A stretch of 52,986 bases of DNA, taken from contig JABARH010000003.1 in the NCBI GenBank assembly GCA_019187665.1, positions 254,982 through 307,967 on the forward strand. Reading direction: 5' to 3'. Origin of the DNA: Anaerolineales bacterium (lineage in GTDB: Bacteria; Chloroflexota; Anaerolineae; Anaerolineales; Villigracilaceae). Shown here piece after piece: positions 13,236 through 14,916 of the stretch; position 1 is the stretch's first letter, and each line of letters starts with the position of its first letter. The position numbers and the translations under genes are program-made. The notes under the pieces were generated by a model that saw only the letters and a list, made by a program, of their open reading frames with translations, was not told where the DNA came from and did not search any database.

Positions 13236-13337
13236 GAGCAAGCGCAACACGAAACCCGTTGTTGTCGTTGGCGTTGTTGTTCCTGTTGCGCACGGCGGCG
13301 CGCACGTTACGCGCTTCATTGTTGAACGAACCACCGC
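13236..13337 (-). repeat. DGR template repeat (TR)
   Basis: 102 bp, 228 bp away from its partner at 13464-13565 and in the same orientation. On the minus strand it reads as a run of AAC codons: eight of the ten codons matching protein positions 468-477 are AAC or AGG/GAC neighbours of AAC. It contains 24 adenines. Eleven are replaced in the partner, while none of the 78 other bases differ. This A-only pattern is the hallmark of DGR template and variable repeats. Confidence 0.93.
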
Positions 13338-13449
13338 ACTTTGGACTGACCCCTACAGTAAAGCGGCTTGCGCCGCAAACTGCAAAATTCGACTGGGGCT
13401 TTGCCCCAGACCCCACAGAAATCAGAAAACAGAAAATCAGAAAACAAGA
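13338..13449 (-). other. Spacer between DGR target gene and template repeat, two hairpins
   Basis: Two stem-loops lie here: CTGGGGC/GCCCCAG at 13393-13409 with a TTT loop, and GCGGC/GCCGC at 13363-13376 with a TTGC loop. Known DGRs have hairpins downstream of the variable repeat that help target recognition; these are candidates, though they lie farther from the repeat than usual. No coding sequence is seen. Confidence 0.55.
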
Positions 13450-14916
13450 TCAAGAGAGAATGGGAGCAAGCGCAACACGAAACCCGAAGTCGTCGTAGGC
13501 GTTGCTGAGCCTGATGCGCACGGCGGCGCGCACGTTACGCGCCTCACTGTCGAACGAACCACCGCGAAGGATGCGGCGAATATCATCGGCGGCCTTTTGA
13601 TTCTCGCGTCCGTCACGCGGCTTGTATGGATAGCCAAAATCAGACTTGTTGGAATCCTTTCCCCACAGGCTGGCCGTCCACTCCCAGACATTGCCTGCCA
13701 CATCGGCGCAACCAAAGGAGCTGTCGCCTTGCGGAGAATACAATCCAACCGGTGTGGTGCGGCCAATTCCGCTGGCATCTGAATTGCATTTTTGAGAATC
13801 AAATTTATCCCCCCACGGGTAAATGCGCCCGTCTGTGCCTCGCGCGGCTTTTTCCCATTCGGCTTCGGTGGGTAAACGGAATATCAATCCACGTTGCATG
13901 GAAGAATCGTGTTCGCGGTTTAACCAATCACAAAATGCCTGCGCATCCTTCCAGATGACCTGAACCACCGGGTGATTCTCCAAACCGTTGATTTCCGAGT
14001 CTGGTCCACGAGGATGAAACCAATTTGCCCCGTTTGTCTTTACCCACTTTTCGCCATTCCAATTCCAGCCAAAACCATCGGTCTCAGCCTGTGTTTTGTA
14101 AGAGACCTGTTTTACAAACGTACGGAATAGGGCATTTGTTACAGGGAAACGCGCCATCAGAAAATCATATGGGATGTTGAATTTGTGTTGGGGCTTTTCA
14201 TCGTCGTAGGCATCCTTGTCTTTATCGGTGGAGCCCATCAAAGACTCGCCATGCGGCACTTTGACAAATTCCATCCCGGCAAAAGTCCAAGTCTGCACGG
14301 TTGCGGGAGGAGGCGTAAATGTCCCGCCTGCATATTCGGGAGGGATGTAAAGGTCAAGATCGGGGAACGAGGCAGGCGCGGATTTGGGAGTCGCTTTTTC
14401 GGGTCGCGATTCGCGGATAGACACAGGAAGCACGGCAAGCGGTTCTACAGGAGGGGCGGATTTCGTCCCAACCGAAACACCCACCTTTGCGGCGCGTATT
14501 TTCATGCTGGCTAGTAATTTTGCATAAGCCGTTGGACGGGCGGAGGCAGGAAAATAATCCACCCATTGCCAGGTGCGGATGCGGCGCGGGACTTCACAAG
14601 ATTCCAGTTTCAACGGAATCAGGAAGATCGCGCCTTCGGGCATGTTCATGGTCACATCGAGGACCATGCGCAATTCTTTTTGGAGGTAGCCCTCCTTGCC
14701 TACAGATTGGTTCGAGAGGCAGACGAGAACGAGGTCAGAGGTCTCGACGGCTTTCTCGATCTCTAGATCCCAATCCTGGCCGGGCAGAAGTTTCTCCTGA
14801 TCCAACCATGGATCGATCCAACCTTCGGCGAGGAGTTTATGATACAACTCGCGGACAACGGGCTTGTCCTGCGAGGAGTGACAGAGGAAAACGCGAAGTT
14901 TGCGGGGTTCGGGCAT
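13450..14916 (-). CDS. TIR-FGE fusion, DGR target protein
   Basis: The 488-residue protein starts with a TIR domain (about 6-125: KLRVFLCHSSQDK, candidate catalytic E81 in YLQKELRMVLD). A Pro/Ala linker spans 150-210. The C-terminal formylglycine-generating-enzyme-type domain covers about 212-488 (PVTNALFRTF, LPTEAEWEKAARG, YPWGD, DVAGNVWEWT). The FGE module has a C-type-lectin-related fold. The last ~35 residues are the variable repeat: eight positions (456, 457, 468, 470, 471, 474, 476, 477) differ from the template, and no catalytic FGE cysteine pair is visible there. Bacterial TIR domains often degrade NAD+ in phage defence, so a variable ligand sensor coupled to a TIR effector is a reasonable inference. 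No signal peptide is seen. Confidence 0.9.
   Translation of the reverse strand: MPEPRKLRVFLCHSSQDKPVVRELYHKLLAEGWIDPWLDQEKLLPGQDWDLEIEKAVETSDLVLVCLSNQSVGKEGYLQKELRMVLDVTMNMPEGAIFLIPLKLESCEVPRRIRTWQWVDYFPASARPTAYAKLLASMKIRAAKVGVSVGTKSAPPVEPLAVLPVSIRESRPEKATPKSAPASFPDLDLYIPPEYAGGTFTPPPATVQTWTFAGMEFVKVPHGESLMGSTDKDKDAYDDEKPQHKFNIPYDFLMARFPVTNALFRTFVKQVSYKTQAETDGFGWNWNGEKWVKTNGANWFHPRGPDSEINGLENHPVVQVIWKDAQAFCDWLNREHDSSMQRGLIFRLPTEAEWEKAARGTDGRIYPWGDKFDSQKCNSDASGIGRTTPVGLYSPQGDSSFGCADVAGNVWEWTASLWGKDSNKSDFGYPYKPRDGRENQKAADDIRRILRGGSFDSEARNVRAAVRIRLSNAYDDFGFRVALAPILS
13464..13565 (-). repeat. DGR variable repeat (VR)
   Basis: It forms the 3' end of the TIR-FGE gene, ending 14 bp before the stop. 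It matches the template at 91 of 102 positions. The invariant 3' part, which encodes GFRVAL and runs to the end of the repeat, fits the GC-richer initiation-of-mutagenic-homology segment. Changes from template are A to G (six), A to T (four) and A to C (one). Confidence 0.93.

Follow-up and report, generated by a model that had tools for sequence, protein, structure and literature searches.

The analysed stretch of Anaerolineales DNA (53 kb, hereafter the window) contains, judged from its sequence, what is almost certainly the template/variable pair of a diversity-generating retroelement (DGR), with the template repeat (TR) at 13236-13337 and the variable repeat (VR) at 13464-13565. The cassette very probably has no reverse transcriptase (RT) in place, and our preferred reading is that it is an RT-less DGR cassette without an adjoining Avd, whose VR is probably rewritten in trans by a DGR RT encoded elsewhere in the genome. 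A conserved structured RNA follows the TR (Table 1), and similar RT-less cassettes recur among the genomes of the family.

Table 1. Predicted features of the window cassette and its convergent neighbour.
Feature	Position	Strand	Remarks
Putative metG (methionyl-tRNA synthetase), convergent neighbour	11208..13010	(+)	outside cassette
TR end and conserved structured RNA element 3' of TR	13026..13257	(-)	alignment, pair counts, covariance model
P1	13227-13234 with 13125-13132	(-)	
P2	13159-13168 with 13146-13154	(-)	
P4	13100-13109 with 13085-13093	(-)	
Conserved CCAAATATAAAA	13075-13086	(-)	
P5	13063-13072 with 13026-13035	(-)	
TR (template repeat)	13236..13337	(-)	AAC-rich, outside target gene; homology to VR reaches 13233
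Post-VR hairpin	13393..13409	(-)	7-bp stem, AAA loop; starts 51 nt after VR
VR (variable repeat)	13464..13565	(-)	last codons of target gene; homology to TR reaches 13461
Target gene (variable protein), 488 aa	13450..14916	(-)	TIR_2 and FGE-sulfatase domains
TIR_2 domain	residues 9-134 of 488-aa target		
Linker	residues ~150-205 of 488-aa target		low confidence
FGE-sulfatase domain	residues 216-482 of 488-aa target		C-type-lectin fold

Aligned on the minus strand, the two repeats form a gapless match of 102 bp in direct orientation, 228 bp apart. Of their 11 differences, five are A>G, five A>T and one A>C; each of them falls at one of the 24 adenines of the TR and none at its other 78 bases (hypergeometric p 1.4e-8), as the initial annotation had described; its estimate of about one in ten million for a chance origin was conservative. 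The homology extends by a further 3 bp, which adds one A-site difference, so that all 12 differences over 105 bp are at A (p 4.9e-9). In the frame of the target gene, the TR translates as GGSFNNEARNVRAAVRNRNNNANDNNGFRVALA and the VR as GGSFDSEARNVRAAVRIRLSNAYDDFGFRVALA, and the AAC-rich template and the variable copy at the 3' end of a gene were both recovered as first described, with the VR ending the ORF at 13450-14916(-). Among the 17 FGE-domain matches of the genome, only the window's own locus matches its TR at all non-A sites.

The VR lies where a DGR would be expected to place it, in the 3' portion of a gene whose product has a C-type-lectin-like fold. The TIR domain of this target, which may have NAD-consuming or signalling activity, gave a fold match to the TIR of SPARTA/TIR-APAZ, and the TIR-FGE protein is likely an immune sensor. 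In the FGE of T. curvata, the segment aligned to the VR carries two cysteines, presumably the catalytic pair of its C-terminal GGS segment; the window protein has none there and so lacks the cysteine pair of a catalytic FGE.

Variation among relatives follows the template. In the best 31 of 1369 protein matches (the window protein and 30 metagenomic orthologs with 56-80% identity), the VR is present in all 31 proteins, and column entropy averages 2.90 bits over the 13 VR codons whose first or second template base is A, compared with 0.57 at the 22 other VR codons (p 9e-7) and 0.92 at the 234 FGE columns outside the VR (p 5e-9). NNC can encode 277 of the 279 residues found at the nine AAC sites, against 75% in 60 variable columns outside the VR; together with the entropy at template-A codons, this is the trace expected from A>N rewriting of AAC codons. 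The initial annotation had called for a comparison of the VR across reads, strains and metagenomes, and held that the same two fixed sequences in all related genomes would speak against a DGR. Run between species, the comparison places the hypervariable columns at the template-A codons, and the 30 orthologs vary there instead of being fixed. This between-species hypervariability and the A-only TR/VR differences indicate that the DGR reading is right. It is incomplete in that no RT or Avd was found in the 53-kb window, so the locus is not a complete DGR in place. A protein search with the TIR-FGE target matched only 2 of 152 genomes despite relatives in G057, G043 and G047, and its negative results were therefore set aside.

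Comparison of the TRs of relatives also brought out an RNA element of about 230 nt directly 3' of the TR, as in a DGR, with strong covariation in P1, P2, P4 and P5. P1 closes over P2 and is followed by P4, the motif AAATA and P5, giving 32 pairs in four helices. The alignment took in 21 of 29 TRs; eight (L077, L082, L094, L177, L193, L196, L198 and L199) were left out as cut, long, divergent or without the start or end motif. In these 21 sequences, paired cells make up 92.4% compared with 67.6 +/- 1.2 in 500 shuffles, and double changes occur at 28 pairs (168 cells compared with 47 +/- 6.4 shuffled), counts which are favoured by the structure having been drawn by hand on the same alignment. 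Sliding the structure by 1-3 columns lowers the paired cells to 37-44%. TRs that were not used in training also score with the covariance model (L193 77.7, L196 55.7, L198 54.7 and L077 82.6 bits). The window element itself gave E 3.6e-35 and 124.4 bits, 9th of 62 and within the range of elements beside RTs; as one of the 21 training sequences, its score shows only that it has not decayed relative to other elements. Since the single-sequence fold of the window element does not differ significantly from shuffles (z -1.14), the structure rests on covariation. No Rfam family fits the element: one search gave a sub-threshold match elsewhere, and four loci gave none at gathering.

The hairpin behind the window VR has counterparts at other loci: a stem of at least 6 is found in 30 of 36 VR flanks, often about 45-70 nt behind the VR, compared with 23% of 2000 random windows. 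BPP-1 needs a hairpin/cruciform after the VR for efficient retrohoming (PMC3240598). The window hairpin is comparable in place and, by analogy, may have a comparable function.

A complete (autonomous) DGR in the window is ruled out, as neither tblastn with three RT and two Avd queries nor RVT_1 and bAvd searches gave a match anywhere in the 53 kb, including the stretch between VR and TR. The genome (G000; 3.5 Mb, 57 contigs, 98.45% complete) does encode a DGR-type RT. Its two RVT_1 matches are on contigs C13 and C31, leaving none on the window's contig, while bAvd is matched three times, on contigs C11, C1 and C14 only. The RT on C13 (C13:97514-98566) is its one full-length DGR-type RT, with 8ub7, which we take to be the BPP-1 RT, as the nearest solved structure (4.4e-46, ahead of group II RTs), a match to phrog_1423 (1.4e-109), and IGNLTSQ and YVDD motifs. 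The C31 RT was rejected as a partner because it is UG19-type (PADLOC RT_UG19 9.7e-145); this 697-aa protein (C31:18417-19043, L002) is a candidate defence RT in its own right. PF05635, a four-helix 23S-rRNA-IVP family, was of no use as an Avd marker, since its 14 matches in the genome miss the C11 ORF, which is a bAvd. There is also an RT fragment on C8, whose best matches (~79%) are L084, L180, L223 and L182 and not L201, the window element's nearest autonomous relative; as a remnant of a cognate RT it is therefore unsupported.

The C13 RT stands behind another TIR-FGE gene of 543 aa, the 3' end of which forms the VR (C13:97303-97422) of a second pair, with its 120-bp TR at C11:527-646 (L048, L049). 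All 18 of the 18 differences in this pair fall at the 29 TR adenines (p 3.2e-14). C13 closes and C11 opens with what appear to be the opposite ends of a single insertion sequence, which have a 15-bp inverted repeat in common and AAG on each outer side; without this insertion the C13 RT frame would run into the start of avd. We infer a join of the two contigs into one cassette in the order target-RT-[IS]-avd-TR, in which the RT has probably lost its last few residues to the insertion sequence that also parts it from avd. Among the 17 FGE loci of the genome no cross-use of TRs was found: the C11 TR fits only the C13 VR, and, unlike a trans target in the sense used for Thiohalocapsa PB-PSB1, the window VR has no counterpart TR at a different locus that agrees with it at every non-A site. 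At C14:61215-62340 (L035), an FGE match in a 1067-aa frame precedes an incomplete bAvd match below the cut-off (C14:62170-62340), and a search for the RNA element found none there; this is perhaps a decayed third DGR.

We searched 152 genomes of the family with the covariance model, and found elements at E <= 0.01 in 58 genomes, with 77 elements at E below 1e-10 in 43 genomes. Taking as proximity an RT match at E <= 1e-30 within 3 kb of the element, a DGR RT accompanies 49 of these 77 and is lacking at 28 (counted with all 69 RT rows; leaving out 8 of them gives 48 and 29). We inspected 27 of the 28 RT-less elements (all but G133:C19), and regarded as resolved those with an A-biased TR/VR pair and with no less than 1.6 kb of assembled sequence on either side in which no RT was matched. 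Ten loci in ten genomes are resolved by this definition (the window, L238, L075, L090, L240, L241, L243, L244, L245 and L257). Six of the ten have A-only TR/VR differences, while L238, L240 and L244 have one non-A difference each and L245 has two; the p values of L240 (9e-5) and L245 (3e-5) are weak. Avd is kept in four (L240, L241, L243 and L257) and absent from six (the window, L238, L075, L090, L244 and L245). The targets are TIR-FGE (window, L238, L075, L090 and L243), NACHT-FGE (L240, L241 and L257) or KAP-FGE (L244 and L245) proteins. The 20 autonomous cassettes scanned have 11 NACHT-FGE, four TIR-FGE and two KAP-FGE targets, two with FGE alone and one with FGE and a sub-cut-off AAA/NACHT match, so it is the missing RT and not the target class that tells the two kinds of cassette apart.

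Another 17 elements were not counted as resolved, either for contig edges or RT remnants (L049, L074, L089, L092, L242, L247, L251, L252, L254, L255 and L082, the last with 19/19 A differences but with sequence that ends 30 nt behind the element) or for want of a passing TR/VR pair (the second element of L239, L246, L248, L249, L250 and L253). At L249 (7939-8203) and L248 (8175-8500), the RNA element stands directly behind the target gene and no separate TR was found, as though the TR had fused with the VR or disappeared. Pooled over 29 loci, 492 of 498 differences are at A sites, which is not an unbiased rate since the pair finder picks A-biased pairs.

A DGR RT is found somewhere in the genome for 7 of the 10 resolved-cassette genomes, compared with 35 of 142 others (p 0.005), and for 9 of 14 compared with 33 of 138 (p 0.003) in a wider set that takes in G019 and G125 (without TR), G008 (no passing pair) and G131 (an edge case); kinship and DGR richness confound both counts, for which the classes were set by hand. 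No full-length DGR RT was found in four genomes with RT-less pairs: G057 (A-only, with an 82-aa RT fragment), G131 and G032 (both A-only; G032 has 4 contigs and is 96% complete) and G013 (9 A and 2 other differences). The short RTs of G057 and G013 were rejected as hidden DGR RTs, as they have SP in place of the SQ of DGR RTs and share 42% identity with one another; by our reading of the motifs, these two and the 607-aa RT of G032 are probably non-DGR.

An IQ-TREE phylogeny was built from 57 of the 62 elements (without L242, L246, L250, L251 and L253), with L089, L247, L252 and L254 unlabelled and with L049, L074, L092 and L255 labelled as RT for an RT or remnant beside them or across a contig edge. 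Its 14 RT-less rows require 4 changes compared with 12.6 when shuffled (0/500 as low), although the bootstrap is not fully settled and near-copies inflate the clustering. On this tree the window element falls in a group with nine autonomous elements (100/100), of which the nearest are L201 (the closest on the tree) and L081 of the same genus, and RT-less rows are the neighbours of that group (98/99). The C11 element of the same genome is placed elsewhere, with L173, L174 and L230, and the C13 RT belongs to the L173/L174 clade, an RT/RNA lineage other than that of the window element. RT and element distances are correlated (Mantel r 0.49, 0/5000 permutations, n=34, with 2 of the 34 RT frames, L179 and L239, wrong or fused), which is expected for parts inherited together and is possibly a sign of specificity.

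The convergent neighbour of the target gene is, to go by its sequence, presumably metG, and in G037, of another genus, an orthologous TIR-FGE gene (58% identity) is also convergent with a metG-like gene. This ortholog keeps a VR, but no TR was found at its locus; G037 gave no covariance-model match to the element and no RT match, and has a bAvd match elsewhere in the genome. Of seven genomes from the same genus, six continue past metG, and in none of these was a TIR or FGE match found there within 1.5 kb. The TIR-FGE gene is therefore patchy, the TR can be absent, and decay does happen.

How the window cassette came to lack an RT may be explained in several ways. Rewriting in trans is supported by an element that scores like those beside RTs, by the lack of changes at all 78 non-A sites, and by the recurrence and clustering of RT-less cassettes, which point to a non-autonomous form of DGR and not to a single accident. 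Against it stand the lineage mismatch with the resident RT, the insertion-sequence damage to the RT locus, and the RT-less pairs in G057, G131, G032 and G013, where no full-length DGR RT was found. The main rival is a relic, in which the cassette lost an L201-like RT and Avd of its own, leaving the VR frozen and the pair a fossil. Its nearest autonomous relatives being L201 and L081 cassettes of the same genus would suit such a loss, as would the ortholog without a TR in G037 and the RT remnants seen in the genome (the C8 fragment, although of a different RT clade) and at L092, L242, L251 and L252. Against a fossil speak the lack of any difference at 78 non-A sites with a TR outside the gene, an element that retains all its helices and scores within the range of those beside RTs, the absence of RT or Avd matches between VR and TR or anywhere in the window, and the recurrence and clustering of RT-less cassettes, and we regard this origin as less likely than rewriting in trans.

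It is also conceivable, if improbable, that a cognate RT exists in the cell or in sister strains and is absent from the 57-contig assembly, which would make the locus an ordinary DGR with a remote RT or an RT-less variant within a population that has intact ones, as reported for two loci of Thiohalocapsa PB-PSB1. The fragmented assembly (98.45% complete), with insertion-sequence ends at contig ends in the second DGR locus, leaves room for this, the Mantel correlation allows RT-RNA matching, and DGRs 3 and 7 of PB-PSB1 are reported to have variants with intact parts (PMC10907252). However, the two RVT_1 matches are the only ones in the genome and neither is on the window's contig, the cassette has no RT at its locus either way, and the 4-contig genome G032 likewise holds an RT-less cassette with no DGR RT found. 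An ordinary duplicated gene end, with a chance A bias or gene conversion and no retroelement, would fit two direct copies so close together, but is hardly credible given the p value for A-only differences, the ortholog entropy and NNC signature that already contradict it, and the DGR RNA element 3' of the TR.

If the VR is indeed rewritten in trans, transcription of the minus strand would give a TR RNA whose P1-P5 scaffold would recruit RT-Avd in the manner of the BPP-1 spacer. Template adenines would then be miscopied and the cDNA would replace the VR, so that the ligand-binding face of the FGE domain would come to be specified by NNC codons, with the TIR domain as the predicted effector of an immune-type sensor. 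More tentatively, such cassettes may constitute a standing class of non-autonomous DGRs, related to autonomous DGRs as SINEs are to LINEs. It is possible that the members of this class would have private templates and a conserved RNA scaffold, would endure across genera on RTs borrowed from several lineages, and would diversify a repertoire of TIR/NACHT/KAP immune-type sensors with shared enzymes.

BPP-1 shows A-specific TR/VR differences, a C-type-lectin-fold target, a structured RNA 3' of the TR and a post-VR hairpin (PMC12875486; PMC3240598). The window has A-specific differences, a C-type-lectin-fold target that ends in the VR, the 3' RNA and the hairpin in common with it, and its genome encodes a DGR-type RT and bAvd; unlike BPP-1, the cassette is without RT and Avd, its TR is directly behind the target, and that target is a bacterial TIR-FGE protein instead of a phage tail fibre. 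In Thiohalocapsa PB-PSB1 and other multicellular bacteria, FGE/CLec DGR targets carry TIR and STAND/NACHT domains, and the PB-PSB1 DGRs include incomplete loci, evidence for trans rewriting, and insertion sequences that break parts (PMC10907252). The immune-type FGE targets, the incomplete loci and the insertion sequence breaking DGR parts are similar here. However, those PB-PSB1 targets for which trans activity is the best explanation match the TR of another locus, and RT-broken loci are explained by intact variants (PMC10907252), whereas the RT-less window cassette keeps its own TR, which fits none of the other FGE loci of its genome (17 in total). Remote variable proteins of cyanobacteria, which are remote targets of a DGR's TR (PMC7517822), are likewise far from any RT, but in the window the TR and RNA scaffold adjoin the target. 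A nanoarchaeal DGR missing its RT ORF was reported as incomplete from one contig (PMC4372165); it resembles the window in lacking an RT, while the present set comprises ten loci from ten genomes, clustered on the RNA tree.

DGRs, trans targets (PMC10907252), single incomplete loci (PMC4372165) and, in kind, a structured 3' RNA are thus already known. Our searches of open-access papers brought up neither a class of RT-less DGR cassettes nor a covariance model of DGR template RNA, and the novelty here lies in RT-less cassettes that recur and bring their own template and scaffold. Large DGR surveys take the RT as their starting point, so that a cassette of target, template and scaffold without one is easily missed; one such survey states that it would not detect targets away from the RT (Roux 2021; PMC8144416), while DGRscan is described as able to seek TR-VR pairs without an RT (PMC4159848). 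Should trans use prove real, a single RT could serve a number of independent sensors, diversifying each from a separate template, and the hypervariable immune receptors of bacteria are undercounted. With its covariation, the element can be searched for directly and provides a model of RT-Avd recognition outside BPP-1 that can be put to the test; should the standing class exist, it would also be a means to find RT-less templates in any genome.

Two further observations were made in the window. A 437-aa ORF at 8509-9822 (-) has no Pfam match, overlaps other frames and may not be a gene. The P5 hairpin (within 13020-13075) lies just past the stop of the convergent putative metG, with a T6 next on the plus strand, and may double as the terminator of that gene, one hairpin ending both transcripts.
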